From NCBI RefSeq assembly GCF_005082145.1, contig NZ_CP034897.1, positions 434,001-498,000 of the forward strand: a stretch of DNA of 64,000 bases, given 5' to 3'. Positions 6,893 through 48,497 of this stretch are shown piece by piece (positions within the stretch are counted from its first letter, which is position 1; every line of letters begins with the position of its first letter). The stretch is from Buchnera aphidicola (Aphis craccivora). GTDB taxonomy: Bacteria; Pseudomonadota; Gammaproteobacteria; Enterobacterales; Enterobacteriaceae. The position numbers and the translations under genes were made by a program. The notes under the pieces were generated by a model that saw only the letters and a list, made by a program, of their open reading frames with translations, ran no database searches and was not told the DNA's origin.

Positions 6893-7623
6893 ATGATTAA
6901 AAAAATATTTCTTATCTTAATTAGTGCATTTTTTTTTTAATTATTATAAAAAAAGATAATGTAAAAAAAAATCATATAAAAAGTTTTCAACAAGCTAAAA
7001 TTTTAGCGATTAAAATACATAAAAATGCGCCTGGAACATTTTATTGTGGATGTAAAATTACTTGGTATAATAAAAAAGGAATTCCTAATTTATCATCATG
7101 CGGATACAAAATCCGTAAAAATAAGAATCGAGCACAAAGAATTGAATGGGAACATGTTGTTCCAGCATGGCAATTTGGACATCAAAAAAAATGTTGGAAA
7201 AAAGGAGGAAGGAAAAAATGCATGAAAAATCGAAATTATCAAAATTTTGAATTTGATTTACATAATTTGCAACCTTCTATTGGAGAGATAAATGGAGATC
7301 GTTCTAATTTCATGTATAGCGAATTAAATAGCAATGTAAAACAATATGGTAAATGCAGCATGAAAATAGACTTTAAAAAAAAATTAGTAGAACCGCCTAA
7401 AATAGCTCGGGGAGCTATAGCTAGAACTTATTTTTATATGAATACAATATATAATCTTAAATTATCTATACGAGAAAAAAAATTATTTAACAAATGGAAT
7501 CTTAGTTTTCCAGTTACTAAATGGGAATGTATAAGAGAACATCTAATATTTAAAATTCAAGGTAATCATAATCATTATGTATATAAAGAATGTCTAAATA
7601 AAAATTACTTTTTTAAAAAATGA
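6893..7623 (+). pseudogene. endA: Endonuclease I, frameshifted at a T10 tract in the signal peptide (possibly rescued)
   Basis: A periplasmic or secreted beta-beta-alpha-metal nuclease. The ATG at 6893 opens a signal-like start ([15 protein letters not shown]) that hits TAA at 6938-6940, at the end of ten T's (6929-6938). One extra T joins it to the long frame that reads [12 protein letters not shown], then [15 protein letters not shown] (catalytic histidine region), then [20 protein letters not shown]. The restored product is 243 aa (E. coli 235). Beyond the T tract the frame has no stop or lost motif, so selection probably still acts. Typed as pseudogene only because the genomic frame is broken. 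It overlaps rsmE by 4 bases (ATGA). Confidence 0.85.
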
Positions 7624-8357
7624 AAAATCGTATTCCACGCATTTATATTGATAAAAATTTAAAAATCAATGAAAAAATAATTTTGAACTCATCTAATACA
7701 CATTATATAATCAAAGTATTACGTATGAATACTCAAAATAAATTAGAAATATTTAATGATACAAATTATATTTTTTTATCTAAAATCATTGAAATTAAAA
7801 AAAAAATAGTAACTATTTTAATTTTAGAACAAGAAAAAAAAAATATTGAATCCCCATTGCTAATTCATCTGGGATTAGTTATATCAAAAAATAAAAAAAT
7901 GAATTTTGCTATTCAAAAATCTATTGAATTAGGCGTACATACAATCACTCCAATATTTTCACAATATTGTAATTTTAATAAAAATAAAAAAAATATTTTA
8001 AAAAAAAACGTTGATTGGAAAAATATAATAATTGCTGCATGCCAACAATGTCGACGTAATATTATTCCAAAAATTAATCATATAGAAAATATTAATACAT
8101 GGTGTGAAATATCAAATAAAAATGAAACAAAAATTATTTTAGATCCAAAATCTATAATTAATATTAACCAATTACCAAAAAATATTAATTATATTCGATT
8201 ATTAGTTGGTTGTGAAGGTGGATTTTCACTATCAGAAGTACAAAAAGCAATCAAGCATGAATTTATTCCAGTTAAATTAGGACCAAGAATTTTAAGAACA
8301 GAAACAGCTGCAATTGCAGCAGTAACTGCTTTACAGATTAGATTTGGTGATTTATAA
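7620..8357 (+). CDS. rsmE: 16S rRNA m3U1498 methyltransferase RsmE
   Basis: SPOUT-class methyltransferase that uses SAM to methylate U1498 of 16S rRNA. It is 245 aa (E. coli 243). The C-terminal knot is clear: [16 protein letters not shown], then [20 protein letters not shown]. The N-terminal part is a PUA-like RNA-binding domain. Its ATG overlaps the endA stop (ATGA), which suggests translational coupling; endA then rsmE is also the E. coli order. Confidence 0.95.
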
Positions 8358-8369
8358 ATTTAATCATAT

Positions 8370-8419
8370 AAAAATAGATTTTAATAATAAATGATTTATA
8401 ATTTAAAAAATCTATTTTT
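8370..8419. terminator. Inverted repeat between convergent rsmE and rpiA
   Basis: AAAAATAGATTTT (8370-8382) and its exact complement AAAATCTATTTTT (8407-8419) form a 13-bp A/T stem with a 24-base loop. The right arm overlaps the last codons of rpiA. The runs of T at both ends suit a bidirectional terminator. Confidence 0.4.
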
Positions 8420-9074
8420 CTATAATTTTTACACTGTTTTTTGTACCCATTAGTATTATATCTGCACCTCTTAAAGCAAATAAACCAACAGTAACAACTC
8501 CTGGTAATAGACTAATTTTTTTTTCTATATAAATAGGATCATATATATATAAATTATGTATGTCTAAAATTATATTGCCATTATCCGTGATAACATTTTT
8601 TCTAACTTTTGGCTGCCCTCCTAATTTAATTATTTCATTTGAAATAAATGATTCAGCTATAGGAATAATTTCAATAGGTAGTGGAAAAGAACCTAATATA
8701 TTTACTTTTTTTGTTTGATCTATAATACAAATAAATTTTTTAGAAATAGCTGCAATAATTTTTTCCTTAGTTAACGCTGCACCTCCACCTTTAATCATCT
8801 GCATATTATTATTTATTTCATCAGCGCTATCAATATAAATTTCTAATGTATTAAAAGTATTCAAATTTAAAATATTATTAATCCCGTTTTTTTTTAACAA
8901 AATTGTTGAAGAATTTGAACTAGAAACCACTCCAGATATTAAATGTTTTACTGTACTTAAAGCTTCAATAAAATAAAAAACAGTACTTCCTGTCCCCACT
9001 CCAATGACGGTTCCAGGGGAAATATAATCTAGCGCAGCCCAAGCTGCTTTTTTTTTAAATTCATTTAAATTCAT
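8412..9074 (-). CDS. rpiA: Ribose-5-phosphate isomerase A
   Basis: Interconverts ribose 5-phosphate and ribulose 5-phosphate in the non-oxidative pentose phosphate pathway, feeding nucleotide and histidine synthesis. It is 220 aa (E. coli 219). Motifs seen are GVGTGST near residue 25, DSADEIN near 81 and KGGGAALTKEKIIA near 94, which carry the active-site Asp, Glu and Lys residues of the family. The ATG is at 9072-9074. Confidence 0.97.
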   Translation of the reverse strand: MNLNEFKKKAAWAALDYISPGTVIGVGTGSTVFYFIEALSTVKHLISGVVSSSNSSTILLKKNGINNILNLNTFNTLEIYIDSADEINNNMQMIKGGGAALTKEKIIAAISKKFICIIDQTKKVNILGSFPLPIEIIPIAESFISNEIIKLGGQPKVRKNVITDNGNIILDIHNLYIYDPIYIEKKISLLPGVVTVGLFALRGADIILMGTKNSVKIIEK

Positions 9075-9236
9075 AATATAAAAACCTATTTTATTTTATA
9101 TAAATATTCTAAAATAAAAATAGCAAAATTTTTAATGTAAAAATAAATACAATAATACTATATAAAATTAAAATAGTTTATATTTTATCTATAAAATATT
9201 ATTTTTATTAGAAAACTAGAAAAAGAATAAATTAGA

Positions 9237-9311
9237 TGGCTGGGGTACCTGGATTCGAACCAGGGATGCCGGTATCAAAAACCGGTGCCTTAACCGCTTG
9301 GCTATACCCCA
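9237..9311 (-). tRNA. tRNA-Gln (anticodon UUG)
   Basis: Read on the minus strand it begins TGGGGTATAGCC and ends TACCCCAGCCA. The acceptor stem pairs, the T arm contains GGTTCGAATCC, and anticodon TTG lies at 9276-9278 on the plus coordinates. CCA is encoded at 9237-9239. It closely matches E. coli tRNA-Gln(UUG) and belongs to the metT-leuW-gln cluster. Confidence 0.95.
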
Positions 9312-9335
9312 AAATAAAAAGTGAAAAAACACATA

Positions 9336-9417
9336 TACGGGAGGCGAGATTTGAACTCGCACACCTTACGGCGCCAGAACCTAAATCTGGTGCGTCTACC
9401 TATTTCGCCACTCCCGC
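9336..9417 (-). tRNA. leuW: tRNA-Leu (anticodon UAG)
   Basis: Class II tRNA with a long variable arm. The 5' acceptor strand GCGGGAG (9417-9411) pairs with CTCCCGT (9343-9337) with one G-U pair; discriminator A at 9336; anticodon TAG at 9381-9383. CCA is not encoded. The body nearly equals E. coli leuW. Confidence 0.95.
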
Positions 9418-9432
9418 AAAAAAACTTTTATT

Positions 9433-9509
9433 TGGTAGCTACGACGGGATTTGAACCCATGACCCCAGCGTTATGAGTGCTGTGCTCTAACCAACTGAGC
9501 TACGTAGCC
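9433..9509 (-). tRNA. metT: tRNA-Met, elongator (anticodon CAU)
   Basis: Minus-strand gene GGCTACG...CGTAGCT with discriminator A and an encoded CCA (9433-9435); anticodon CAT at 9473-9475. It matches E. coli metT (elongator) and heads a Met-Leu-Gln cluster transcribed away from glnS. The tRNA-Ile lysidine type is less likely because the body resembles metT throughout. Confidence 0.93.
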
Positions 9510-9681
9510 ATATTAACAATAAATAAATTATTTTATTCAACATTTTTGAATTAATTATTTTTTTTATTCTATAATAAATAAAATAGATTATCAATATAAT
9601 TATTAATTTAAAAAAATACTTTTTAATAAAAAATCTTTATGTTTTTGACATATTCTCAAATAAATTAAATTGAAGGAAAAA

Positions 9682-11382
9682 ATGAAAAATAAAATTGAAA
9701 AATATAGTAATAATTTTATTTATAATATTATTAAAGAAGATTTAAAAAACAATAAATTTTCGTTATTACATACTCGTTTCCCTCCAGAACCAAATGGCTA
9801 TCTACATATTGGTCATGCTAAATCAATATGCTTAAATTTTGAACTTGCAAATTTATACAATGGATATTGTAATCTTCGTTTTGATGACACCAATCCTCTT
9901 GAAGAAAATATTAAATATATTCATTCAATTAAAAATGATATTAAATGGCTCGGTTATAAATGGAATAAAAAAATTTATTATTCTTCAGATTACTTTCCAC
10001 AACTATATAAATATGCAAAAGAATTAATTAAAAAAGGTTTAGCATACGTAGATCAATTAACAAAAGAACAAATACGCGAATATAGAGGAACATTAATTAC
10101 TTCTGGAAAAAATAGTCCTTATAGAAATAGAAATATTGAAGAAAATTTAAAATTATTTAAAGATATGAAAAAAGGACGTTTTAATGAAGGAGAAGCTTGT
10201 TTACGTGCTAAAATTGATATGAGTTCTTCATATATTATAATGCGCGATCCTGTATTATATCGTATTATTTATACTGAACATCATCAAACAAAAGATCAAT
10301 GGTGTATCTATCCTATGTATGATTTTGCTCATTGCATTTCTGATTCAATAGAAGGTATTACGCATTCTTTTTGTACTTTAGAATTTCAAGATAACAAACG
10401 TTTATACGATTGGATTTTAAAAAATACTAGCGTTTTAAATCGCCCTAAACAATATGAATTTGCCAGATTAAATTTAAAATATTCAATTTTATCAAAAAGA
10501 AAAATAAAAACACTTATTGAAAAAAAAATAGTCAATAGTTGGGATGATCCTAGAATACAAACTATTTCTGGATTAAGAAGAAAAGGATATACAGCGTCTT
10601 CTATTCGAAAATTTTGTGAAAAAATTGGTGTCACTAAACAAAATAATTTAATAGAGTTTTCTATGTTAGAATATTGTATTAGAAACGAATTAAATGAAAA
10701 AGCTATACGTACTATGGCTATTTTAGAACCAATAAAATTGTATTTATATAACCTTGACGATAAATATGAAGAAGTACTTACTGTTCCAAATCATCCTAAA
10801 AAACCAGAATTAGGTACTCATGAAATTATTTTTACTAATACAATATATATTGAAAAAGAAGATTTTAAAGAAAAATATGAAAAAAATTATAAAAGATTAA
10901 AAATTGGCGAAGAAATACGTTTAAGATATTCATATATAATTAAAGCAGAAAAAATAGAAAAAGATAAAAATGGAAAAATTATACAAATAATATGCTTTTG
11001 TGATCTTAATACATTAGGAAAAAAATCGAATAATAAAAAAAACCCAGCAGTAATACATTGGATTTCAGTAAAAAATTCATTTTCATCAGAATTTAGATTA
11101 TATGAAAAGTTATTTAATATACATAATCCAGAACAAGAAAAAAATTTTTTATCTTTTTTAAATCCTAATTCAATGATTATTAAAAATGGTTTTATTGAAA
11201 AAAAAATAAGTCAAGAAATACAAAAAAAGATTAATGATATTAAAATAAAAAATATAAATTTATTTTTTCAATTTGAAAGAATTGGATATTTTTGTATAGA
11301 TTTAGTTGATTCAAAAAAAAATAAATTAATTTTTAATAGAACTGTTAGTTTACGAGATACATGGAATAAAAAAAATAATTAA
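9682..11382 (+). CDS. glnS: Glutamine--tRNA ligase
   Basis: Class I synthetase charging tRNA-Gln, whose gene lies just upstream on the other strand. It carries the HIGH-type motif in PPEPNGYLHIGHAKS, the tRNA-contacting EFQDNKRLYDW, and the second signature as ILSKRK (E. coli VMSKRK, so Met to Leu). From the ATG at 9682 it is 566 aa (E. coli 554). An in-frame TTG four codons earlier (9670) is possible, but the AAGGA at 9673-9677 then lies inside the gene, whereas it is well placed for 9682. Confidence 0.96.
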   Translation: MKNKIEKYSNNFIYNIIKEDLKNNKFSLLHTRFPPEPNGYLHIGHAKSICLNFELANLYNGYCNLRFDDTNPLEENIKYIHSIKNDIKWLGYKWNKKIYYSSDYFPQLYKYAKELIKKGLAYVDQLTKEQIREYRGTLITSGKNSPYRNRNIEENLKLFKDMKKGRFNEGEACLRAKIDMSSSYIIMRDPVLYRIIYTEHHQTKDQWCIYPMYDFAHCISDSIEGITHSFCTLEFQDNKRLYDWILKNTSVLNRPKQYEFARLNLKYSILSKRKIKTLIEKKIVNSWDDPRIQTISGLRRKGYTASSIRKFCEKIGVTKQNNLIEFSMLEYCIRNELNEKAIRTMAILEPIKLYLYNLDDKYEEVLTVPNHPKKPELGTHEIIFTNTIYIEKEDFKEKYEKNYKRLKIGEEIRLRYSYIIKAEKIEKDKNGKIIQIICFCDLNTLGKKSNNKKNPAVIHWISVKNSFSSEFRLYEKLFNIHNPEQEKNFLSFLNPNSMIIKNGFIEKKISQEIQKKINDIKIKNINLFFQFERIGYFCIDLVDSKKNKLIFNRTVSLRDTWNKKNN

Positions 11383-11448
11383 TATAATTTTTAAAATTAT
11401 ATATACAATTTAATTAACAAACTAATTTTGCTTATTAATACAATTCAA

Positions 11449-11468
11449 TTAAAGATTTTAATCTTTAA
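11449..11468. other. Perfect palindrome upstream of pyrG
   Basis: TTAAAGATT (11449-11457) and AATCTTTAA (11460-11468) are exact complements with two T's between them. It is 37 bases before the pyrG start and 66 after the glnS stop. It could be a weak 3' hairpin of glnS or a protein site; nothing else supports either. Confidence 0.3.
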
Positions 11469-11490
11469 ATTACTTATCTATTTTAACTAA

Positions 11491-14476
<2,986 letters not shown>

Positions 14477-14486
14477 AATTTTTAAA

Positions 14487-14524
14487 GAGAATCAGGTATT
14501 TTATAATCAATATACCTGTTTCTC
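14487..14524 (+). terminator. Hairpin after eno
   Basis: GAGAATCAGGTAT (14487-14499) pairs with ATACCTGTTTCTC (14512-14524) with a single T-T mismatch and a 12-base loop, 10 bases past the eno stop. There is no U tract after it. Likely the 3' end of the pyrG-eno message. Confidence 0.5.
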
Positions 14525-14566
14525 ATTAAATTCAACCTCAGTAATTAATTTACGGATATTAATATA

Positions 14567-15220
14567 ATGCATTATCCAATTAACGAAATTTTTCAAACCA
14601 TACAAGGTGAAGGTTATTATACTGGTACACCATCAATTTTTATTCGATTACAAGGATGTCCAGTGCACTGTCATTGGTGCGATACTAAATATACATGGGT
14701 TTGTTCTGATAAAGAAAACGTTTCTATAAAAGAAGTAATAAATAAAAACCAAGTTAGTAAGAAATGGAGCTATTTAACTATAAACGATATATTAGAAACA
14801 TTAAAAAAATGGACTGCTAAACATGTAGTTATTAGCGGAGGTGAACCATGTTTATATAATCTTTTATATATAACAAAAATATTAGAAAAAAAAGGTTATC
14901 AATGTCAAATAGAAACTAGTGGTATAAAAAATATTATATGTTCTTTAAATACTTGGGTGACTCTTTCTCCAAAAAAAAACATAAGACCATTAAATGAATC
15001 TATAATACGTTCTAATGAAATAAAATTCCCTATTTTAAAAAAAGAAGATTTATTATATGTATATGATATTTTATCAAACATAAAAGATAAAAAAAAACGT
15101 ATTATTTATTTGCAGCCTATTAGTCAAAATAAAAAAGCATTAAATATATGTATGAATATCTGTATGAAAAAGAATTGGAAATTATCAGTACAATTGCATA
15201 AATATATTAATATTCAATAA
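14567..15220 (+). CDS. queE: 7-carboxy-7-deazaguanine synthase QueE
   Basis: Radical SAM enzyme of queuosine synthesis. The atypical iron-sulfur motif CX3CX2C is seen as C31, C35, C38 within GCPVHCHWCDTKYTW, followed by the glycine-rich VVISGGEPCL. It is 217 aa (E. coli YgcF 223). It faces queD with only 14 bases between the stop codons. QueD makes its substrate, so two consecutive steps sit side by side although on opposite strands. queC, the next step, is not in the window. Confidence 0.93.
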   Translation: MHYPINEIFQTIQGEGYYTGTPSIFIRLQGCPVHCHWCDTKYTWVCSDKENVSIKEVINKNQVSKKWSYLTINDILETLKKWTAKHVVISGGEPCLYNLLYITKILEKKGYQCQIETSGIKNIICSLNTWVTLSPKKNIRPLNESIIRSNEIKFPILKKEDLLYVYDILSNIKDKKKRIIYLQPISQNKKALNICMNICMKKNWKLSVQLHKYINIQ

Positions 15221-15234
15221 AATTTTATTATTTT

Positions 15235-15600
15235 TTAAATTTCTTTATAAATACATCCAGAAGTGCATGTTTCTTTAATCATAACAGCACTTAATGCTAA
15301 TAAATTAGGTTTTAAACGATCCCAGATCCATTTTGCTAAAACTTCACTAGTAGGATTTTCTAATCCTGAAATGTCATTAAGTAAATAATGATCCAACTGA
15401 TCATAAATAGGTTGAAACAACAATTTTATATCATTGTAATCCATTATCCAACCTTTATCTTTTTTAACTTCTCCTTTAATCTCTAATCGAACAAAAAAAG
15501 AATGACCATGTAATCTATTACATTTGTGCTCTTTAGGAAGGTTTGGTAAATAATGTGCTGCTTCAAATTGAAAATCTTTAAATATAGTAGTATGAATCAT
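15235..15600 (-). CDS. queD: 6-carboxy-5,6,7,8-tetrahydropterin synthase QueD
   Basis: PTPS-family enzyme converting dihydroneopterin triphosphate to 6-carboxytetrahydropterin, the step before QueE. It is 121 aa, as in E. coli. Zinc ligands H16, H31 and H33 (RLHGHSF) and the catalytic Cys27 (HKCNRL) are present, as is [17 protein letters not shown]. It appears to be the last gene of the long minus-strand run that begins with cysJ; in E. coli queD likewise neighbours cysJIH. Confidence 0.95.
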
Positions 15601-15633
15601 TTTTTATATATCTTATAAAAATTAATTAAGTTT

Positions 15634-16622
15634 TTAATATTTTTTTAATCTTATATTAGGAAAAAGATTTAATAAGTTAATCGGATTTCCTTGAAACCTT
15701 ATTTCAAAATACAATTTTGCTAAATTATTATTAGAATATCCCATAGTAGATATTTTTTGATTTTCATATACCTGATCGTTTAATTTTACAAAAATATTTT
15801 TGTTAAATCCATATATACTTAAATAATTATTATCATGTTTAATAATAATTAATTTTCCATAAATTTTAAAAATATCACCAATATAAACCACTTTCCCCTT
15901 AGAAGATGCAAAAATAGATTGTCCTTGAGTACCTGATATTTCAATACCATCGTTTTTAATAGAATAATTATAAAAAAATTTCATATTTGAATTTTTTAAA
16001 GGCCAATACCAACGTTCAGAAAAAACATTTTTTTCTTCATTATAGTTTTTGTTATAAATAAAACATATTTCAGTTAATAGTTTGTTTTTATTAAAAATAT
16101 TTTCAATATTTAATTTTTTATTAAAAAAACTTGTATATAAAACATGTTTTTTATATTTATCACTATAAATAGTATAGTTTATTTTTTTAGTATCAATTAT
16201 TGAAATGTTATTTACTAATATTTTTTGACCGATAAATATTTTATCAGGCTTACGAAAATTATTATATTTTAATAATTGACTAAAATTATAATGAAGGCGT
16301 TTTGAGATAGAATATAAAGTATCGTTTTTTTTAACAACATAAAATATACTAAAAATATTATCTTTTAAAAAACCAATATAATTTTTATTTTTAATAATAA
16401 CTGAGTATTTTTTAGAAAATTTTTTATTTTTTTTTAAAAATGAAAAACATTCTGTTTTTATATTTTTTTTTTTAAATTATTTTTAATGTATAAAAACTTT
16501 TTGCAATTTAAAGAGATATTTTCTTGTTTTTTAAATAAATTGTTTGCAAATATATAGTTATTATAAAAAAATAATATAAATATTGATAAAAATAACTTTT
16601 TTCCAAAAAAATTAAATTGCAT
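15634..16622 (-). pseudogene. nlpD: NlpD-like LysM/LytM murein hydrolase activator, frameshifted at an A11 tract (possibly rescued)
   Basis: On the minus strand an ATG at 16620-16622 opens a hydrophobic signal-like start (MQFNFFGKKLFLSIFILFFY) and runs 54 codons to TAA at 16458-16460. The break is in eleven A's of the coding strand (T's at 16463-16473). One extra A joins it to a frame that stays open to 15634. The restored product is 329 aa (E. coli NlpD 379). It has a LysM repeat (VVKKNDTLYSISKRLHYNF, about 16347-16207) and a C-terminal LytM domain in which the metal-site histidines are replaced, as in the non-enzymatic NlpD/EnvC group. I see no good lipobox. In E. coli nlpD also follows ispF after truD-surE-pcm, which are missing here. 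Confidence 0.75.
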
Positions 16623-16680
16623 TAAATTACACCATTTATTAATATAATCAATATTACTAAAAATATTATATTTAATAAAA

Positions 16681-17175: not shown

Positions 17176-17194
17176 ATTGTTAATATACCTTATT

Positions 17195-17905: not shown

Positions 17906-17939
17906 TTTATACCTAACATTATGTATTTAAAATATAATT

Positions 17940-18140: not shown

Positions 18141-18180
18141 ATAATGACTCTAAATAATTTTATTTTAGTATTAAAATAAT

Positions 18181-18801: not shown

Positions 18802-18820
18802 TTTAATAAAAACCTACACT

Positions 18821-20239: not shown

Positions 20240-20271
20240 TTTTTTAGATTTAACCTATATTAAGCGTATTT

Positions 20272-21180: not shown

Positions 21181-21189
21181 TATATTTCC

Positions 21190-27028: not shown

Positions 27029-27245
27029 TATACTAAATACCTAAATTTCATTAAATTAAAATTAAATATAACTAATTTAATATAATTTACAGAAATTATT
27101 AATTTTTAGCTACTAATAAAAAAATCAAAATTTGTATATAAAAAATAAAATTATATTATTTATTATTGTTTAATATATTAGAAAATATAAAATAATAATC
27201 TATTTACTTTTTTATTCAATTAATTTTATTTATGTTTTTATTACT

Positions 27246-29333
27246 TCATATTGGAATTCTAGATAATGAAGGTACTAACACAAATAGTTTGTTTGATATT
27301 CCATGTTCAATTTGATATAAAAACTATATTATTTTGATATTCGATGATATAAAAATAAATATTTTGTATATATTTATAAAATAATTCTAATTTTTTAAGT
27401 TCCACAAATAATTTAAAAATAACACCATAGATTTATTTTTAGAAATAAGGTAATTAGAACCTGTTTAAACTAAAATGAATTTGTTATTATTAGATGCATA
27501 AATTTATACCAGATCATCAATTAAAACTAAACTGAAAAAAATTAAATCATTATAAAATCTTATCAATTTGAGTTAATAAAAATATATTTCGAAAAAATAA
27601 AACTACCTATATATGACATTGTTGCGATAATAATCTACTTGTTTCATATAAGTTGCTTTTACCAATTATATTAATTCTAAAAATAAGTAAAATTCGTTTA
27701 TTTAGAAACAATAAAATATAGTTTTTATAAAACAGATTCATTAAATAATGTTTATAAAAAGAATACTAACTATCTAATAAAAAAATATTTTTATTTAAAA
27801 TAAAAAACAGTTTGATAATATTAAATAGTTTTAAATATAATCTTTTTGTAAAAGTGAATATTAAAATTTTAAATGAATAACTTTTTATTCATACTATTTT
27901 AGTAATAAAATATTATTAACGTTTATATTTTTTAAATTTTATATTTTAATATAATAATTTGAAATTAATACAGCACGACGTTTGAAAACTTAAATAGTAC
28001 TCAATAATAAATATTATTATAATCTACTTTGAATGATTCAATTATTAATTTTTATCTTCAATTTAAAAATTTTGTAAATAATTTTTCGAATTTTCTTTTG
28101 AAAAACTTAAATTATCAAATTCTTTATTATAAAAATATACTACTACATTTCACCCTTGAAGAGACATAGAAACTTTTATATTAATAGATTTTTTTAAAAA
28201 TATTTTTATTGTACTTAAATTTCCAATTTTTAAATGTAATTTTTCAATGTTTTTACAGTTTATTTTTAGTTTTATATGTAAATGAGAAATTATTTTTAAT
28301 TATTGAACGAAATTTTGTAAAATATCTAGGTAAATCAGCGTGTACAATTAATCTTAAACATATTTTTCTAATTCACTAATTTAGTATATAATACTTTGAT
28401 TTTCTTCATAAGATGACTTTTAAAAAATCTAATCATTTTTTAACTATTCTTAACTAATTTATAATTTTTAATGGATATATTAACCATCTATTTAGGAATC
28501 TTTTAACTATAAATGTTACTGCTTTATTTAATACATAAAATAAAGCATTATGATTTTCTCTAAAATATTTTAAATAATTTTAAAACTTTTACGAACACTG
28601 AATTTTATAAAAATATTATTTTTTATATAATTAAGTTTTATTTCTTAATGTAAGGAAAAAGATACACATGTATTAATTTAATGCGCTTTAATAAATATTC
28701 ATTAAGACCTATAATAAATAATTTTTAATACTAAATCTTAAAATAAACGTTTTAAATTATAAATTTAATAACTTATACGAACTATATAAATCAAAATTTG
28801 ATATCAAACAACCGCATAAGCAACGGTTTTTTGAAATTAATTAAGAACCCTTAAAATTATCTAGATACAATAATTTTTTTGGATTCATATGCTTAATCTT
28901 TTAAAGCAAATAGCTTACAATCTAACATTTAAAAAAATTAAAAAACCTAAAAAAATCCAAAATAGCATATTCAAATTTATTTTTTCTAAATTAATCTAAT
29001 AAAATTATCTTATTATCTTCAAAAACTTCATCTATAATAACGCAAAGATTGATAGTTCAAAGTAATAGATTCTCTTAATTTCATAGCTTAGAAAGATAAC
29101 ATTCTGCAATATAAAATAAAATTTTGACTATTTGGTATAATGTTTTTATTTAAATAGCGTTTTTATTAATGTGATTTTTAAAAATTTAAAAATACGTTGT
29201 GTATTATCATAAAATAATTCATAAAAACCACCTATTTGTTAAAAAAATCACATATTAGGATATTTTGATTTTAATAAAAACATTGTTTTATCATTAGAAT
29301 ATGAATATTATTTTTATAAAGTAATTTTTTCAT
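27246..29333 (-). pseudogene. mutS: Decayed mutS (DNA mismatch repair ATPase)
   Basis: No open frame of useful size exists here, but the minus strand read in shifting frames follows MutS in order. ATG at 29331-29333 gives MKKLLYKNNIHILMIK (E. coli AHTPMMQQ region). At 29238-29158, QIGGFYELFYDNTQRIFKFL matches MGDFYELFYDDAKRASQLL. Near 28560-28465, ENHNALFYVLNKAVTFIVKR and then FLNRWLIYPLK match AENTLASVLD...LKRWLHMPV. Near 28240-28120, IGNLSTIKIFLKKSINIKV matches the AELRDLLERAIIDTPPV part. At 27701-27609, NKRILLI...IGKSNLYETSR is the ruined Walker A (RMLIITGPNMGGKSTYMRQ). Near 27360-27246, FYIIEYQNNIVFISN and VPSLSRIPI match HLDALEHGDTIAFMHS and LAGVPKEVI. Many stops and frameshifts make it dead. 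The flanks 27029-27245 and 29334-29496 show nothing I can name. Confidence 0.88.
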
Positions 29334-29496
29334 TATTTGATATTTAATTAATCTTAAAATTATTTAAAATGCGTCTTGATTTAAAAAAAAATATTAAGTT
29401 AAACTATTTAATATTATATAAAAATATTGTTTTTAAATAAATTCTTTTAAATAATATTTATTTTTCTAAGAATTAAAAAATAAATTTGGATCAAAA

Positions 29497-35523: not shown

Positions 35524-35635
35524 TATTTCTCCTATAATACAGATAAAATATATCAAGTAAAAAAATAAATTTATATAATTAAAAGAATCTTATAAATTAT
35601 TATTTATAATCAATTTTTAGAAGAATAACAAAATC

Positions 35636-36734: not shown

Positions 36735-36742
36735 AGGCTAAA

Positions 36743-38251: not shown

Positions 38252-38308
38252 AGATCATATTTTAAACAAAAATTTATATAGATTTTAAAAAAATAAATAG
38301 GAGTAAAA

Positions 38309-39556: not shown

Positions 39557-39602
39557 TAAATTTGTTTAATAACTATCAATAAAAAAGAGAACAAAAAAAA
39601 AT

Positions 39603-40444
39603 ATGTATATTAATTTTCCGCAATTCAATCCTATTATTTTTTCTATAGGTCCTTTTTCTGCGCATTGGTATGGTCTTATGTATGTTATTAGTTTTATTTT
39701 TGCGCTTTTTTATGGAAAAAAAATATTAAAAAAAAAAACATAAATAAAATTAGAATCGAATCATTTTTATATACTATTTTTTTAGGATCTTGCATTGGAG
39801 GAAGAATAGGATATATAATTTTTTACAATTTTTCATATTTTTCTCAACATATATTATGTTCATTTCATATTTGGGAAGGTGGCATGTCATTTCATGGAGG
39901 GTTAATAGGAGCTATTATTAGTATGTATTATATTTCTATAAAAAATAAAATTAAAATTTTAATTATTTCTGATTTTATTAGTCCTATAATACCTTTTGGT
40001 TTAGGTGCCGGAAGATTAGGAAATTTAATTAATGGAGAACTATGGGGACGAATCGCTCCTAATTTTCCATATGCAATGTTTTTTCCTAACGCAAAAAATC
40101 AAGATTTAGAGTTAATATTAAAATATCCTCAATTACAATCAATTTTAGAAAAATACGGAGCACTACCTCGTCATCCATCTCAAATTTATGAATTTATTTT
40201 AGAAGGTGTCTTGCTATTTTTAATAATCTATTTATTTGACAAAAAAAAAAGACCTATAGGCAGTACTAGTGGTATGTTTTTGTTTAGTTACGGAATATTA
40301 AGAATAATTGCTGAAATATTTCGAGAACCAGATTCTCAAATTGGATTAATTCAAAATTGTATTACAATGGGTCAAATATTATCAATTCCAATGGTTATAT
40401 TTGGGATCATTATTATATTTATATCTTATTATAAAAAATCATAG
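39603..40444 (+). pseudogene. lgt: Prolipoprotein diacylglyceryl transferase, frameshifted at an A11 tract (possibly rescued)
   Basis: Membrane enzyme that lipidates the lipobox Cys of prolipoproteins. The ATG at 39603 gives [19 protein letters not shown] and runs 46 codons to TAA at 39741-39743, just after eleven A's (39728-39738). One extra A continues into GSCIGGRIGYIIFYNF, GGMSFHGGL and the family signature GAGRLGNLINGELWGR, ending at 40444. The restored length is 280 aa (E. coli 291). No other defect is visible. Lgt is essential in E. coli, and BamD here is a lipoprotein, so the gene is probably needed. thyA follows 14 bases later, as in E. coli. Confidence 0.88.
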
Positions 40445-40458
40445 AATTTTGAGATATT

Positions 40459-41253
40459 ATGAAAGAATACTTGCAGTTAATAGAAAAAATAATTAAAAAT
40501 GGAAAACCAAAAAATGATAGAACTGGAACAGGAACATTGTCTATCTTTGGCCATCATATAAGATTTAATTTAAAAAAAGGGTTTCCTCTTCTTACTACAA
40601 AAAAATGTTATATACCCGCTATTATTCATGAGCTTCTATGGTTTCTTCAGGGAGGCACTAATATTAAATATCTTAATAAAAATAAAATATTTATTTGGGA
40701 TAACTGGGCTGATAAGTTTGGTAATCTAGGGCCAATTTATGGAAAACAATGGAGAAGTTGGAATACATCAGATGGTAAAAAAATTGATCAAATAAAAAAT
40801 GTAATAAAACAATTAAAACAAGACCCAGACTCTCGCAGAATATTAGTGTCTAGCTGGAACGTTGGTGAAATAAATAAAATGTCTTTACCTCCATGTCACG
40901 TATTGTTTCAATTTTATGTATTTAAAAACAAATTAAGTTGTCAATTATATCAACGTTCTTGTGATGTTTTTCTTGGATTACCATTTAATATAGCAAGTTA
41001 CGCGATGCTCATGCATATGATAGCGCAGCAATGTAATTTTGAGGTAGATGAATTTATATGGACAGGTGGTGATATTCATTTATATAATAATCATATTTCA
41101 CTGGTAAAACAACAACTTCTTCGAAATCCTAGAAAATTACCAACATTAATAATAGCAAATAAACCTCGTTCATTATTTGATTATGTTTTTGAAGATTTTA
41201 AAATTATTAATTATAATCCTTATCCTTCAATTCATGGCACAATATCTATATAA
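40459..41253 (+). CDS. thyA: Thymidylate synthase
   Basis: Makes dTMP from dUMP with methylene-tetrahydrofolate. It is 264 aa, the same as E. coli. The catalytic Cys is in [13 protein letters not shown], and the folate/dUMP site reads [20 protein letters not shown]. It forms the conserved lgt-thyA pair. Confidence 0.98.
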
Positions 41254-41323
41254 AATCTTAAAAAATAGTTTCTTTATTTAAATAAAATAATTTTAAGCAC
41301 AATAAGGTTTATATAACTAAAAA

Positions 41324-42643
41324 ATGAAATATATATACATTAAAACCTGGGGCTGTCAAATGAATGAATATGATTCATCTATGATAGTAAAATATTTAGA
41401 AAAAACAGGTCAATATTTAATTACTAAAAATTCTGAAAAAGCGGATGTTTTAGTTTTAAATACTTGTTCTATAAGAGAAAAAGCTCAAGAAAAAGTTTTT
41501 CATCAATTAGGAAGGTGGAAAAAATTAAAAAATAAAAACGCTAATATTATAATTGCTGTTGGAGGCTGTGTAGCAACACAAGAAGGTAAAGAAATTTTTA
41601 AAAGAGCTAAATATGTAGATATTATATTTGGTACTCAAAGTTTACATAAATTACCGAAAATGATTGATGAAGTAGAAAAAAACAGAAAATTTGTTATTGA
41701 TATTAGCTTCCCAAAATTAGATAAATTTAATAATTCTTTAACAATAACAAATAAAGGATACACAGCATCTATTTCGATAATGGAAGGATGTAATAAATAT
41801 TGCTCTTTTTGTGTTGTACCATATACAAGAGGTCAAGAAATTAGTCGACCATCTGATGACGTTTTATTTGAAATAGCAAGTTTAGCTGAAAATGGTATAA
41901 AAGAGATTAATTTATTAGGACAAAACGTCAATGCATATCAAGGACCAACTTTTGATGGAAAAATTTGTTATTTTTCAGAATTATTACGATTAATTTCAGA
42001 AATAGATGGTATCGAAAGAATTCGTTTTACCACAAGCAACCCACTTGAATTTAGCGACGATATTATTGAAGTGTATAAAGATACTCCTAAATTAGTTAGC
42101 TTTTTACATCTTCCTGTACAAAGTGGATCGAACAAAATATTACAACTTATGAAAAGATCATACACTACAGAAGAATATGAAAAAATTATTGAAAAACTAA
42201 TTAAAGCACGTCCAAATATTCAAATTAGTTCCGATTTTATTGTTGGTTTTCCGGGAGAATCTAAAAAAGATTTTAAAGAAACTATAAATTTTATAAAAAA
42301 AATTAATTTTGATATGAGTTATAGTTTTATATATTCAAGTCGACCAGGAACCCCAGCGTCAGAAATGAAAGATGAAATTAATATTAAAGAAAAAAAAGAA
42401 CGTTTATATATATTACAAGATTGCATTAATAAACAAACTATGTCTTGGAGCAGAAAAATGTTAGGAAGTAAACAATGTGTTTTAGTAGAAGGTACTTCAA
42501 AAAAAAATGCTATGGAGTTATATGGAAAAACAGAAAATAATAGAATTGTAAACTTTCATGGATCACCGAAAATGATTGGAAAATTTGTTAACGTACAAAT
42601 AAATGAAATACATACTCATGTTTTACATGGTAAATTATTATAA
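41324..42643 (+). CDS. miaB: tRNA-2-methylthio-N6-dimethylallyladenosine synthase MiaB
   Basis: Radical SAM methylthiotransferase acting on position 37 of tRNAs that read UNN codons. It is 439 aa (E. coli 474). The N-terminal cluster cysteines are in [20 protein letters not shown] and [10 protein letters not shown]; the radical SAM motif CX3CX2C is in [16 protein letters not shown]. The C-terminal TRAM domain is shortened but present. In E. coli miaB is followed by ybeZ-ybeY-ybeX-lnt; here ybeZ is missing and ybeY begins 7 bases later. Confidence 0.96.
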
Positions 42644-42650
42644 GAAATAT

Positions 42651-43114
42651 ATGAAAATAAAAGATTGTTTTATTTTAAATACACAAATAAATTGTAAAAA
42701 TAAAGAAAAAATACCAAAAAAAATAATATTTAAAAAATGGTTAAGAAAAACTTTATATAAAAAAAAAATATTAAAGTTATTACAATTAGAATTGTAGACG
42801 AAATAGAAATAAAAAATTTAAATTTAATATATAGAGGAAAAAATTATCCAACAAATATTTTATCTTTTCGAGCAAATATTTTTATACAAAAAAATATAAA
42901 ATTATTAGGAGATTTAGTAGTATGTAAAACAATTATAGAAAAAGAATCTATACAATATAATAAAACATTAGAATCTCGTTGGGCACATATGATTATACAT
43001 GGAACGCTTCATCTATTAGGATATGATCATCAAAATAAAAAAGAACAAAAAATTATGGAAAATATAGAAAATAAAATTATGTTATCTTTGAACTATAGCA
43101 AACCATATTTTTAA
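42651..43114 (+). pseudogene. ybeY: Endoribonuclease YbeY, frameshifted at an A10 tract (possibly rescued)
   Basis: YbeY is a zinc-dependent RNase of 16S rRNA 3' maturation and ribosome quality control. The ATG at 42651 gives MKIKDCFILNTQINCKNKEK and stops at TAG 42795-42797, after ten A's (42759-42768). One extra A restores reading into VIRIVDEIE-type sequence, then YRGKNYPTNILSFRA, LLGDLVV and the metal site HMIIHGTLHLLGYDH (HX3HX5H), ending at TAA 43112-43114. The restored length is 154 aa (E. coli 155). The catalytic part is perfectly conserved, which argues against a dead gene. Confidence 0.88.
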
Positions 43115-43205
43115 AAATTAATAATTCTTTATAAAAATTATTTGCAACCTAACATTTTATAACATAAAACAGTAAAATATATTTTAAAATAGATAACTAA
43201 ATATT

Positions 43206-44069
43206 ATGAGTGAAAAAGATGCAAAAAGTTCAGAAAAAATTAATAAAAAAGGTTTTTTTTCTATTTTACTAAATCATATTTTTCATGATGAACCTAAAAA
43301 TAGAGAAGAATTACTCAAATTAATTCGAGATTCAGAACAAAATGAACTGATTGATCAAGATACATGTGACATGTTGGAAGGCGTAATACATATTGCAAAG
43401 AAAAAAATTAAAGACATTATGATTCCCAGAACACAAATGATAATATTACAATTAAATTATAATTTAAACAAGTGCCTTGATATTATTCTAGAATCTGCAC
43501 ATTCACGTTTTCCAGTAATGAATAGTGATAAAAACTATGTAGAAGGATTTTTAATTGCTAAAGATTTATTACCATTTATGAGAAATTCAAATAAAAATTT
43601 TCATATAAAAAATATATTAAGACCTGCTTTTGTTGTTCCTGAAAGCAAATATGTAGACAGAATGCTAAAAGATTTTCGTTTAAAACGAACGCATATGGCA
43701 ATAGTCATAGATGAGTTTGGGGCAGTGTCTGGATTAGTCACTATAGAAGACATTCTTGAATTAATAGTTGGTGATATTGAAGATGAATATGACGAAGAAG
43801 AAAAAGTTAATATTCGAAAATTACAAGAACATATATTTTCGATTAAAGCATTAACAGAAATAAAAGAATTTAATGATTTTTTTAAAACTCATTTTAGCAA
43901 TGAAGAAGTAGATACTATTGGGGGATTAGTAATGAAAGCATTTGGACATTTGCCAAGTCGTGGAGAAAATATTAATATTAATGGATATAACTTTAAAATA
44001 TCCTCGGCAGATAGTAGAAAAATAATACAAATACATGTAACTATTCCAGAGAAAACATTCCAAAAATAA
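43206..44069 (+). CDS. corC: CBS-domain transporter-associated protein CorC (YbeX)
   Basis: 287 aa (E. coli YbeX 292) without membrane segments. A pair of CBS domains spans roughly residues 65-190 (KDIMIPRTQMI, then HSRFPVM, then HMAIVIDEFGAVSGLVTIEDILE), followed by a CorC/HlyC transporter-associated domain. It is linked to magnesium/cobalt efflux and ribosome-related phenotypes in E. coli. lnt, which follows ybeX in E. coli, is absent here; leuS comes next. Confidence 0.95.
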   Translation: MSEKDAKSSEKINKKGFFSILLNHIFHDEPKNREELLKLIRDSEQNELIDQDTCDMLEGVIHIAKKKIKDIMIPRTQMIILQLNYNLNKCLDIILESAHSRFPVMNSDKNYVEGFLIAKDLLPFMRNSNKNFHIKNILRPAFVVPESKYVDRMLKDFRLKRTHMAIVIDEFGAVSGLVTIEDILELIVGDIEDEYDEEEKVNIRKLQEHIFSIKALTEIKEFNDFFKTHFSNEEVDTIGGLVMKAFGHLPSRGENININGYNFKISSADSRKIIQIHVTIPEKTFQK

Positions 44070-44227
44070 TATAAAAATAAAACCTATTTTATATTTATTT
44101 TTTATATATTGATTATCTATAGAAATACTTTTTTGATATAAGTAAATCTAAAATTTTATAAAAAATATTTATATTTAAAAATTTTTATTTATTTTAAAAA
44201 ATATGAAAATTATTATAGAGAAACATT

Positions 44228-46816
44228 ATGGAACAAGAATATTGTCCAAAAAATATTGAAATATATGTACAAAAATATTGGAAAAACAAAAAAACTTTTC
44301 ACGTGTATGAAGATGAAACAAAAGAAAAATACTATTGCCTGCCAATGCTTCCATACCCTTCTGGGAAATTACATATGGGTCATGTGAGAAATTATACTAT
44401 TAGCGATGTAATTGCAAGATATCAAAGAATGTTAGGAAAAAATGTTTTACAACCTATTGGTTGGGATGCTTTTGGATTGCCTGCAGAAGAAGCTGCTATT
44501 AAAAACAACACAATTCCATCATCTTGGACATATAAAAATATTAAATATATGAAAAAACAGCTAGAATCATTAGGTTTTAGCTACGATTGGGATCGAGAAA
44601 TAACTACATGTAAACCAGACTATTATAAGTGGGAACAATGGTTTTTTATTCAATTATATAAAAAAAAATTAGTTTATAAAAAAAACAGTTTAGTAAATTG
44701 GTGCCCTTCCGATAAAACTGTATTAGCGAATGAACAAGTAATAAATGGTTGTTGTTGGAGATGTCAAAGTACTGTAATAACAAAAACAATCCCACAATGG
44801 TTTATAAAAATAAGAAATTACGCCGAACCTTTATATAATGATTTAAAAAAATTAAAAAATTGGCCTGAAAAAGTTAAAAATATGCAAAAAAACTGGATTG
44901 GAAGATCCGAAGGATTTGAAATTTCTTTTGATATTTACAATAGTAGTAAAAAAATTAAAATATTTACTACTAGAATAGATACGCTGATGGGAGTTACATA
45001 TCTTGCTATCTCTCCTTTTCATAAATTTTCTATATATCTTTCAAAAAAAAATCAAATTTTAAAAAAATTTATTGAAACACAAAATAATGAAAATTTTTCT
45101 AAAGAAGAAATAGAAGCAAAAAAATTTTATGGAATAAATACTAATATATTCGCGATTCATCCTATTATAAAAAAAAAAATACCTATTTGGATAGCAAATT
45201 ATGTGATTAATGATTATGGCACTGGGTCAATTATGTGTGTTCCAGGTCATAATGAAAATGATTGGAATTTTGCTATAAAAAATCATTTAAAAATTAAATA
45301 TGTTATTCAACAGTCTAATATAAAAAATATACAATTAAACCAAAATACATTTTTTCCTGAAAAAGGAATATTAATTAATTCTGGAGAATTTAATCAACTT
45401 GATTATAATAACGCTATAAAAAAAATAAAAAAAAAGTTATCAGAAGAAAAAAAAATAAAAACAAAAATTATTTATAAACTAAAAGATTGGTGTATATCTA
45501 GACAGCGCTATTGGGGAACTCCAATTCCTATGGCAACAATGAAAAATGGTAAAATTGTTCCAATACCAGAAAAAGATTTACCTGTATTATTACCTGAAAA
45601 AATAAAAAATTCCGATTTATTAAAAAACTATTCAAATACAAAATCAACTTACTACACTACCAAAATTAATAATCAAACTGCTGTTAGAGAAACAGATACT
45701 TTTGATACATTTATGGAGTCTTCTTGGTATTATGCAAGATATACTTGTCCTCATTTTAAAGAAGGAATCATTAACCCTACAGCATCGAAATATTGGTTAC
45801 CTGTTGATCAATACATTGGGGGAATAGAGCATGCTATTATGCATTTAATGTATTTTAGGTTTTATCATAAATTATTACGTGATTTTAAATTTGTTCAATT
45901 TGATGAGCCAGTAAAAAGTTTAATATGTCAAGGGATGGTGTTATCAGAAGCATTTTATCAGATTGGTCAAAATAATCAACGTCATTGGATTCATAAGTCT
46001 AACATATATATTGAAAAAAATATTAAAGGAGAAATCATTACGGCAAAAGATAAAAAAGGTAATAAAGTTATATATGCTGGAATGATTAAAATGTCTAAAT
46101 CTAAAAATAATGGAATTGAACCAGAATTAATGATTAAAAATTATGGAGCTGATACAATTCGATTGTTTATTATGTTTGCTGCTCCTATAGAATCATCATT
46201 AGAGTGGAATGAGTCTGGAGTAAAAGGAATTTATCGATTTTTAAAAAAATTATGGAAATTATCATTTAATTACATTCAAATTAAACATAAATATAAAAAT
46301 ATAGATTTTAATTTGTTAAATAAAAAACAAAAAAATATGTATTCTTTATTACATAAAACAATCGCTAAAGTTTCTGATGATATCAATCGTCGAAAATCAT
46401 TTAATACAGCTATCTCTCAAATTATGGAATTAGTTAATATACTTAGAAAATTTCAATTAGAAAACGAAGAAGATAAATGTATTATGAAAGATTCATTAAT
46501 ATCAGTTATAAAAATGTTATATCCATTTACACCTCATTTATGTTTTATCTTATGGAAACATTTAAATAAAAATTGCTTTATTGATAATGAAAGGTGGCCT
46601 GTTTTTCAAAAAAATTTTTTATTAGAAACAAATAATATATTAGTTGTTCAAATTAATGGAAAAAAACAATTCACTATAGAAATTCCGCATAATTTAACAA
46701 AAAAAGAAATTTTTATTTATGTTCAAAATCATTCATTTTTTCAAAAAAAAATAGAAAATAAAAATATAAAAAAAATAATTTATATTCCTAAAAAAATAAT
46801 TAATTTTGTAATATAA
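44228..46816 (+). CDS. leuS: Leucine--tRNA ligase
   Basis: Class I synthetase with a CP1 editing domain. It is 862 aa (E. coli 860). The HIGH motif is in PYPSGKLHMGHVRNY (about residue 42) and KMSKS in IKMSKSKNNGIEPE (about 620). The editing domain contains TRIDTLMGVTYLAISP. A run of eleven A's at 45169-45179 encodes lysines without breaking the frame. In E. coli lptE lies between leuS and holA; here it is missing. Confidence 0.98.
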   Translation: MEQEYCPKNIEIYVQKYWKNKKTFHVYEDETKEKYYCLPMLPYPSGKLHMGHVRNYTISDVIARYQRMLGKNVLQPIGWDAFGLPAEEAAIKNNTIPSSWTYKNIKYMKKQLESLGFSYDWDREITTCKPDYYKWEQWFFIQLYKKKLVYKKNSLVNWCPSDKTVLANEQVINGCCWRCQSTVITKTIPQWFIKIRNYAEPLYNDLKKLKNWPEKVKNMQKNWIGRSEGFEISFDIYNSSKKIKIFTTRIDTLMGVTYLAISPFHKFSIYLSKKNQILKKFIETQNNENFSKEEIEAKKFYGINTNIFAIHPIIKKKIPIWIANYVINDYGTGSIMCVPGHNENDWNFAIKNHLKIKYVIQQSNIKNIQLNQNTFFPEKGILINSGEFNQLDYNNAIKKIKKKLSEEKKIKTKIIYKLKDWCISRQRYWGTPIPMATMKNGKIVPIPEKDLPVLLPEKIKNSDLLKNYSNTKSTYYTTKINNQTAVRETDTFDTFMESSWYYARYTCPHFKEGIINPTASKYWLPVDQYIGGIEHAIMHLMYFRFYHKLLRDFKFVQFDEPVKSLICQGMVLSEAFYQIGQNNQRHWIHKSNIYIEKNIKGEIITAKDKKGNKVIYAGMIKMSKSKNNGIEPELMIKNYGADTIRLFIMFAAPIESSLEWNESGVKGIYRFLKKLWKLSFNYIQIKHKYKNIDFNLLNKKQKNMYSLLHKTIAKVSDDINRRKSFNTAISQIMELVNILRKFQLENEEDKCIMKDSLISVIKMLYPFTPHLCFILWKHLNKNCFIDNERWPVFQKNFLLETNNILVVQINGKKQFTIEIPHNLTKKEIFIYVQNHSFFQKKIENKNIKKIIYIPKKIINFVI

Positions 46817-46843
46817 AAACTTTTAATATGGTATGTTGTTTAT

Positions 46844-47854
46844 ATGAAATTTATATATTCAGAAGAATTAAAAAGAAAAATAATTAAAAATTTAAATTTA
46901 TTTTATATTTTCTTAGGAGAAGATTTAATATTCTTAAAAAAAAATGAAAAAATAATATTAGATTTTGCTAAAAAACAGGATTTTAAAGAAAATAATATTA
47001 TTAATGTAGAAAAAATTACAGATTGGAATAAAATAATAAGTTTTTATAGTTCAAATAATTTATTTTTTAAAAAAAAAGTTTTAATTATTAATTTAATTAT
47101 AAAAAATTTAAATTCTTTATTAATAAAAAATATAAATAAATTATTTTTTGTTAAAAATTTAGATATATTAACAATATTAAAATTTAATCATTTATCTAAT
47201 GATTTTAAAAATTATTTATTAAAACAAAAAAATATATTTAATGCTAATATTGTATGGTGTTTTACACCATATGGTTCAAATTTTAAAAAATGGCTATTAT
47301 ATGAACTAAAAGAAAAAAAAATAGAAATAACCGAAAATGCTTTTTTGTTATTATACAAATTTTATGAAGGAAATACTTTATTTATATATAATATCTTAAA
47401 TATAATGATTCTTACATGGAAAAATGAAAAAATTACATCAAAAAAACTAAAAAATATTATTAATAAATTTGCTATTTTTACTCCATCGGATTGGATAAAT
47501 TCGATTTTTGAAAATAAAATAAAACACGCTTTTTATATATTAGATACTTTTCGAAAACAAAAATATAATCCTCTTATTTTAGTAAGATCATTACAAAAAG
47601 ATTTATTAACATTGGTTAATATGAAACGTGAAAAAAAAACAAATATGAATTTATTTTTTAAACAAAACAATATTTTTTTCAATAGAATTAAATTTTTTAA
47701 TTTTGCAATTGAATCAATAAATTTTAATAATTTTTTAAAAGTAATTAGAATATTATTACAAACAGATATTAAAATTAAAGTAGAATATAATTACAATGTA
47801 TGGACAGAATTAAAAACATTGACATTATTATTATCTTCAAAAATAAAAAATTAA
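46844..47854 (+). CDS. holA: DNA polymerase III subunit delta
   Basis: Clamp-loader subunit that opens the beta sliding clamp. It is 336 aa (E. coli 343). Sequence is strongly A/T-drifted (very high Lys/Asn/Ile/Phe), but the order of segments matches: FYIFLGEDLIFLKKNEK at the N-terminus, VWCFTPYGSNFKKWL, then NPLILVRSLQKDLLTLVNMK. Assignment rests on these matches plus the leuS-holA-nadD context. Confidence 0.9.
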   Translation: MKFIYSEELKRKIIKNLNLFYIFLGEDLIFLKKNEKIILDFAKKQDFKENNIINVEKITDWNKIISFYSSNNLFFKKKVLIINLIIKNLNSLLIKNINKLFFVKNLDILTILKFNHLSNDFKNYLLKQKNIFNANIVWCFTPYGSNFKKWLLYELKEKKIEITENAFLLLYKFYEGNTLFIYNILNIMILTWKNEKITSKKLKNIINKFAIFTPSDWINSIFENKIKHAFYILDTFRKQKYNPLILVRSLQKDLLTLVNMKREKKTNMNLFFKQNNIFFNRIKFFNFAIESINFNNFLKVIRILLQTDIKIKVEYNYNVWTELKTLTLLLSSKIKN

Positions 47855-47868
47855 AAATATCATAAAAA

Positions 47869-48497
47869 ATGAAAGAAATATACGCAATCTTAGGGGGTAA
47901 TTTTGATCCTATTCATTATGGACATATTCTTTCTGCAGAAAAATTAGCAAAAGAAATTTCAATAAAAAAAATTATATTATTACCAAATCAAAACCCTCCT
48001 CATCGATCTAAAACTAAAACACCTTTAAAACATAAATTGAAAATGATGGAATATGCTATTAAAAATAATAATTTATTTGAAATAAGCTTATTAGAAACAA
48101 AAAAAAAATTTTTTATACTGTAGAAACATTAAAAAAAATAAGATCAAAAATTGGATTTGCTAAATCATTATGTTTTATAATAGGAGAAGATAATCTAAAT
48201 AATTTAAACTTTTGGAAAAATTGGAAAGAAATATTATTATATGTTCATTTATTAATTCTCCCGAGAAATGGTATAAAAAAATATGATAATGAATTAAAAA
48301 AATGGGTTTCTTTACATACTATTAAAAATAAAATTCATTTACATAAAAAATCATTTGGATATATTTTTTTTTCATCTATACCTTCTATAAAAATTTCTTC
48401 TACTCAAATAAGAAAAAATTTTGCTGATGGTAAAAGCTCACGTAAATTTATACCTATAGAAGTGGAAAAATATATTTTTTTAAAAAATTTATATTAA
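47869..48497 (+). pseudogene. nadD: Nicotinate-nucleotide adenylyltransferase, frameshifted at an A10 tract (possibly rescued)
   Basis: Essential step of NAD synthesis. The ATG at 47869 begins with the nucleotidyltransferase motif ILGGNFDPIHYGHI and continues to PNQNPPHRSK, then stops at TAG 48121-48123 just after ten A's and six T's (48099-48114). One extra A gives FYTVETLKKIRSK, then FIIGEDNLNNLNFW and the second signature SSIPSIKISSTQIRKNF, ending at 48497. The restored length is 209 aa (E. coli 213). All catalytic motifs survive on the two sides of the tract. No alternative NadD is visible in the window. Confidence 0.9.

Follow-up and report, generated by a model that had tools for sequence, protein, structure and literature searches.

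Single frameshifts at long A/T runs in five Buchnera genes: two apparently ancient breaks and their probable tolerance through transcriptional slippage

Five genes, endA, nlpD, lgt, ybeY and nadD, are each interrupted by one frameshift at a long run of A or T in a stretch of 64,000 nucleotides from Buchnera aphidicola (Aphis craccivora) (RefSeq assembly GCF_005082145.1, contig NZ_CP034897.1, positions 434,001 to 498,000 of the forward strand; the whole stretch is termed the window). The genome of this Buchnera comprises 641,853 bases. The five are probably functional genes carrying frameshifts that arose by replication slippage and are tolerated since transcriptional slippage restores the frame in some of the mRNAs. 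Judged from the sequences of 36 genomes, the breaks belong to more than one class: those of endA and ybeY go back, by parsimony, to the common ancestor of all 36, and those of lgt, nadD and nlpD are recurrent. In the proposed course of events, slippage of the replication machinery in long A/T runs would lead to the fixation of one-base frameshifts in working genes, RNA polymerase would probably slip at the same runs and bring a fraction of the mRNAs back into frame, yielding full-length protein, and the restored product would maintain selection on the gene, allowing the frameshift to persist.

Three-frame translation, together with the intervals bounding each change of frame, gave one frame change per gene, the genes being otherwise open (Table 1). 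The intervals overlap A/T runs of 10 or 11 bases, as had been claimed in an earlier reading of the letters of the window (the sequence-only reading), and the one added base called for there does join the frames in all five genes, as does, equally, a change of −2. The lgt interval also holds an A8, and the A11 is presumably the responsible run. The ybeY interval consists of the last 8 bases of the A10 and 29 bases past the run; the change was placed at the A10 because comparison with in-frame relatives locates it there. Runs of at least 10 bases make up 62 of the 3703 bases of the five genes, and the window holds 13 such A/T runs. Restored lengths, obtained by arithmetic on the coordinates, were 243, 329, 280 and 209 residues for endA, nlpD, lgt and nadD, in agreement with the lengths first proposed; the 154 residues proposed for ybeY are obtained only from a later ATG, the first ATG giving 170. 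In a Pfam scan Endonuclease_1 matched the downstream piece of endA (6979–7620), LysM and Peptidase_M23 the downstream piece of nlpD and YbeY the downstream piece of ybeY, the upstream pieces of the latter two genes being without a match; LGT and CTP_transf_like each matched both pieces of their genes, lgt and nadD.

Table 1. Positions of the broken genes and of related features (window coordinates).
Feature	Position	Strand	Run at break	Frame-change interval	Remarks
endA (endonuclease I)	6893–7623	+	T10, 6929–6938	6925–6940 (16 bases)	Off-frame in N-terminal region; interval contains T10
nlpD (LysM and M23 peptidase)	15634–16622	−	A11 (+ strand T11, 16463–16473)	16458–16476 (19 bases)	
lgt	39603–40444	+	A11, 39728–39738	39692–39743 (52 bases)	Interval contains A8 and A11
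ybeY	42603–43114	+	A10, 42759–42768	42761–42797 (37 bases)	
nadD	47869–48497	+	A10, 48099–48108	48081–48123 (43 bases)	
mutS remnant	27802–29259	−			G000:C1:461802-463259; 15 stops and 10 frameshifts in aligned part
ybeY outside the genus					Independent frameshifts near N-terminus in four small genomes: L186 (G053), L199 (G119), L205 (G135), L206 (G144)

The endA–nlpD and lgt–nadD regions were taken from 35 further genomes of the same genus, found via lgt, endA and surE, giving 36 with the window genome; nlpD was located via surE, and endA was located in 35 of the 36. Alignments that allow for frameshifts were made for 27 genes in the 36 genomes. The resulting 972 gene–genome pairs comprised 816 without a lesion, 107 with one, seven with two, six with five or more and 36 in which the gene was absent; the six pairs with at least five lesions, among them endA of G024, were excluded from the phase counts. 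Single frameshifts accompanied by no more than one stop occurred in 108 pairs; in 104 of these the frameshift adjoined an A/T run of at least 9 bases, against 16.5 ± 3.7 from random positions. The off-frame share was 16/707 at runs of 9, 73/234 at runs of 10, 10/42 at runs of 11 and 5/11 at runs of 12 or more; these shares take in endA and ybeY, the source of much of the length-10 figure.

Of the 35 genomes with a recognisable endA, 28 have it off-frame at the same site, always with the sign +1; for ybeY the count is 26 of 36 (+1 in 24 of these), and the window genome is included in both. Undercalling of homopolymers in the assembly, to which the sequence-only reading had also pointed, would account for the uniform sign in the window and for the position of every break at a long run. 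For endA and ybeY it is refuted by the recurrence of the break in the majority of the 36, among them the records taken as strains APS and Sg, which were presumably Sanger-sequenced. Runs of 11 and 12 are moreover called in the window (A12 in alaS, A11 in leuS and in pgk, all in frame, as had been stated earlier), and lgt, nadD and nlpD are off-frame in relatives too, with other counts and signs, although the window genome's own run lengths at these three sites might still be miscalled. As an explanation of the five breaks, undercalling is very improbable.

A tree was calculated from ten genes (4828 positions), and the frame states were placed on it by parsimony with an in-frame starting state; the outgroups L007, L020 and L029 cover three of the ten genes, each lacking at least one of those three. 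Parsimony assigned both the endA and the ybeY break to the common ancestor of the 36. With the named Buchnera strains assigned to what we take to be their host tribes, breaks basal to the 36 genomes would therefore be older than the split between Aphidini and Macrosiphini, and they look to be tens of millions of years old. Passages of PMC3164680 set this split at 65 million years, a range of 50–70 also being used. Departure from the ancestral off-frame state of endA and ybeY led into frame in 12 lineages and to the other wrong frame in two. A run of at least 9 bases is present at the endA site in 31 genomes and at the ybeY site in 30, which makes these the most widely kept among the run sites tabulated; its length is exactly 10 in 27 and 24 genomes, respectively, and a run of 11 occurs at neither site in any of the 36. 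A return to frame by lengthening of the run by one base was rejected, there being no genome with 11 at either site. The idea that every return destroys the run was likewise discarded, as a run of at least 9 is kept in four of the ten genomes with in-frame ybeY and three of the seven with in-frame endA.

Outside the genus, endA gave a match in five of the 22 genomes searched and was open across the site in all five (G053, G068, G079, G101 and G126). The ybeY gene was frameshifted in four of 30 genomes of the same family, each time elsewhere in the N-terminal part; three of the 30 alignments (G048, G087 and G134) start at residue 20 or later, hiding any earlier break, and G150 has one stop. Because the endA genes outside the genus are open across the site and the ybeY frameshifts outside the genus lie elsewhere, the break found at the level of the genus looks derived, and the N-terminus of ybeY looks to have been struck repeatedly. 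A frameshift in ybeY has also been reported for Blochmannia turneri (passages of PMC4389277).

Compared across the related strains, as the sequence-only reading had proposed, the endA and ybeY breaks were thus common to most, and the other three sites showed other counts and signs. For lgt, 16 of the 36 genomes are off-frame, eight of each sign. For nadD the figure is 15 of 35 over two sites, with 11 breaks of +1 and four of −1; at the site found in the window nine of 35 genomes are off-frame (five +1, four −1). Six genomes (G003, G009, G012, G023, G027 and G034) have a +1 break at a second nadD run, at about codon 137. The nlpD gene is off-frame in 11 of the 32 genomes that have it. All three genes switch phase between close relatives, and their breaks are later than those of endA and ybeY or still changing. 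In one clade all 14 genomes have lgt off-frame (G000, G001, G008, G010, G013, G015, G016, G018, G022, G024, G026, G029, G031 and G032); within it parsimony, with ties in direction, gave at least six changes of sign and no return to frame.

The uniform +1 sign that the earlier reading emphasized holds within the window and does not extend to the relatives, where the +1:−1 ratios of single frameshifts over the 36 genomes are 28:0 for endA, 24:2 for ybeY, 8:8 for lgt, 11:4 for nadD and 8:2 for nlpD. Because the signs of the last three are mixed, the uniformity in the window is part inheritance and part chance. New breaks do skew to +1, with 19 gains of +1 and four of −1 (two-sided p = 0.003) in a tally made by hand from the parsimony events, from which five −1 calls were omitted: four towards the end of pyrG, one of them beside an A10, and one in pgk.

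The ratio of nonsynonymous to synonymous change (dN/dS) was determined from sister pairs in which both members are off-frame. Past the break it was 0.197 for endA (eight pairs), 0.245 for ybeY (seven), 0.141 for lgt (three) and 0.324 for nlpD (four), endA and ybeY also showing an excess of third-position change. In-frame pairs gave 0.156 for lgt, 0.410 for nlpD and 0.307 for nadD over the same region, 22 other genes gave 0.067–0.332 (median 0.167), and five decayed comparisons gave 0.94, 0.24, 0.52, 1.02 and 0.56. Purifying selection thus acts past the break in endA, ybeY, lgt and nlpD; by parsimony, the divergence compared for endA and ybeY would have accumulated while the genes were off-frame. 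Upstream of the break lgt and nadD gave 0.159 and 0.165, with significant position bias.

The window also holds a remnant of mutS (Table 1) within a segment, 27041–29469, that is without any open reading frame of at least 60 residues. The remnant was identified as mutS because its orthologue in G030 scores as MutS; mutL had no match in the window's genome. Of the 36 genomes, 21 have an open mutS, one (G003, scored as having the gene) a split one, and 14 a decayed gene or no match. In the endA comparison all 21 genomes with mutS are off-frame, as against seven of the 14 without (Fisher's p = 0.0005, not corrected for kinship); for ybeY the figures are 19 of 22 and seven of 14 (p = 0.026). When the events in which endA and ybeY regained the frame were placed on the tree, 11 of 12 fell on mutS-lacking branches, which amount to 44% of the tree length (p = 0.0009). 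The loss of mutS is a possible cause of greater run instability, and mismatch repair would have been lost before the returns to frame. The frameshifts of endA and ybeY would predate the Aphidini–Macrosiphini split and would have been mostly retained where mutS is present; in lineages lacking it the sites would be more changeable, departures from the ancestral state mostly ending in frame. An overall excess of frameshifts in mutS-lacking genomes was considered and rejected (1.79 versus 1.23 per genome with endA and ybeY excluded, p = 0.21), and the density of runs in 19 common genes did not differ significantly with mutS status. Loss of MutS and MutL is described for 11 of 14 Aphis Buchnera in passages of PMC11813355.

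These patterns bear on whether the off-frame runs of endA and ybeY are selected regulatory devices, retained to keep expression low or to yield two products, a reading that overlaps with rescue by transcriptional slippage. The wide conservation of both run sites, their preferred length of 10 and the lack of any run of 11 would suit it, as would the 14-genome clade in which lgt stays off-frame despite its changes of sign. Since returns to frame are commoner in lineages lacking mutS (endA is in frame in seven of 14 of them versus none of 21 with mutS), a low mutation rate, not selection, is suggested to hold the state, and we regard such devices as unlikely. A tentative proposal, which we consider rather unlikely, is that selection maintains the T10 of endA and the A10 of ybeY as programmed slippage sites; these would have held the output of an endonuclease and an RNA-processing enzyme low since before the Aphidini–Macrosiphini split, kept exact by mismatch repair and abandoned where this was lost. 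The probabilities expressed in this text apply to each reading separately, and the readings overlap.

Instead of slippage by RNA polymerase, a −1 shift of the ribosome on runs of A or U might restore the frame. Long A or U runs provide a slippery heptamer, the need for one added base equals a −1 ribosomal shift, and the prevailing signs of endA (28:0) and ybeY (24:2) are those that such a shift could repair; a slippery run in the right phase is present, as it is at any long A or T run. Downstream structure was nevertheless lacking (mean z of about 0 for the sequences whose run is at least 9, 33 of ybeY and 31 of endA), and Shine–Dalgarno-like tetramers lay upstream in two of the 33 ybeY and none of the 31 endA sequences, so that neither stimulatory element was found at these two genes. 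The opposite-sign breaks, eight of the 16 in off-frame lgt and four of the 15 in off-frame nadD, lie beyond repair by a −1 shift of the ribosome. Simple runs might work without stimulators, and a ribosomal shift remains a candidate for endA and ybeY, although its probability is low.

Several observations weigh against functional genes rescued by transcriptional slippage. Past the nadD break dN/dS was 0.400 in a single pair, without significant position bias. The decayed controls at 0.24, 0.52 and 0.56 show that decay sometimes escapes the method, synonymous differences in these three being 0.53–0.63 and close to saturation. Upstream of the break the values were 0.425 for endA, 0.355 for ybeY and 0.385 for nlpD, from small samples and without significant position bias, and the upstream part of nlpD is loose (0.89) even between in-frame pairs. 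For lgt, nadD and nlpD the divergence compared may be partly older than the break, and none of the three differed significantly in its off-frame share with mutS status. The mutS test itself depends on parsimony and on one tree. The state of mutL is not fully parallel, since G030 (no match) and G014 (remnants) have an open mutS and no mutL above the cut-off, and G028 shows the reverse, with mutL present and mutS decayed. Finally, passages of a study of Buchnera transcripts (PMC5574713) state that no restored frame was found.

It could be asked whether the five are true pseudogenes caught early, in which the frameshift is inactivating and decay has just begun. The phase shifts of lgt, nadD and nlpD among close relatives fit such a state, as does the lack of significant position bias in the one nadD pair, and gene loss does occur in Buchnera, mutS and others having decayed in these genomes. 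However, parsimony puts endA and ybeY out of frame across most of the genus, yet both retain low downstream dN/dS with a third-position excess, and the clearly decayed genes of these genomes have at least five lesions each, unlike the single-break genes. Early pseudogenes are therefore improbable. The earlier contention that the breaks are unlike ordinary decay is upheld: scattered lesions combined with relaxed selection were not found in the off-frame genes, nadD being represented by one pair; the mutS remnant, with its many stops and frameshifts, provides the contrast inside the window. The dN/dS comparison beyond the tracts, also suggested earlier, accordingly indicated selection for four of the five genes and gave no clear bias for nadD. 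Among the other genes surveyed, holA (46844–47854) is intact in frame here, whereas G013, G016, G029 and G032 have it off-frame at an A10 close to the start of the gene; metK is decayed in G017 (L162; 16 stops) and was not found in the stretch examined in G020 (L165).

Tolerance through transcriptional slippage has precedents. Poly(A) frameshifts rescued in this way, with RNA correction measured, were reportedly described in Buchnera and Blochmannia by Tamas et al. in 2008. The present cases resemble these in that a gene of the same genus, otherwise intact and selected, carries one frameshift at a long run of A; they differ in that the endA and ybeY breaks are common to most of 36 genomes, the endA run consists of T and the evidence here comes from DNA alone, whereas RNA correction was measured there. 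Wernegreen et al. are said to have found, in 2010, ancient homopolymer frameshifts kept in Blochmannia, which are alike in the retention of an old frameshift in a gene under selection and unlike in concerning another symbiont. The dnaX gene of Thermus uses programmed transcriptional slippage at a run resembling those considered here (about 9–10 A); a role for a truncated product, unlike in dnaX, is without support here. Slippage in dnaX takes place on runs of 9 according to passages of a review (PMC5009743), which also gives 12–50% of transcripts as corrected for frameshifted symbiont genes.

Rescue by transcriptional slippage, as put forward in the sequence-only reading, thus fits the data and is documented for Buchnera (PMC5009743, PMC3890641), and would probably operate at the present sites as well. 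Passages of PMC5574713 place 151 of 157 insertions made during Buchnera transcription inside homopolymers, and in the symbiont of Myzus gene-splitting poly(A) indels were merged by curators (passages of PMC3890641). The frameshifts belong to the same class as those counted in PMC3164680 (homopolymeric frameshifts per genome: Ua 8, Ak 10, APS Tokyo 11, Sg 18); that paper stresses lineage-specific, independent inactivations, whereas here two breaks trace to a common ancestor. In passages of a 2006 array paper (PMC1440324) endA, lgt and nlpD are listed alongside murE, murF and mraY, and are not called frameshifted there; this listing is a hint that some of the breaks were noticed earlier. Among the papers listed by a literature search, none described endA or ybeY breaks spread across the genus, or an association with mutS; supplements and most journals lay outside this search, so that absence is unproven. 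What is new is the apparent age of the breaks in endA and in ybeY, together with the occurrence of 11 of 12 returns to frame on mutS-lacking branches, the class of frameshift itself being known in Buchnera.

Lists of Buchnera genes in which such genes are called pseudogenes, or recent independent losses, can therefore be wrong, at least for endA and ybeY. These 36 genomes, some with mutS and some lacking it, constitute a natural experiment on the length of time that a genome can survive under frameshifts corrected only in RNA, and the runs of endA and ybeY are two named sites at which RNA reads would be decisive.

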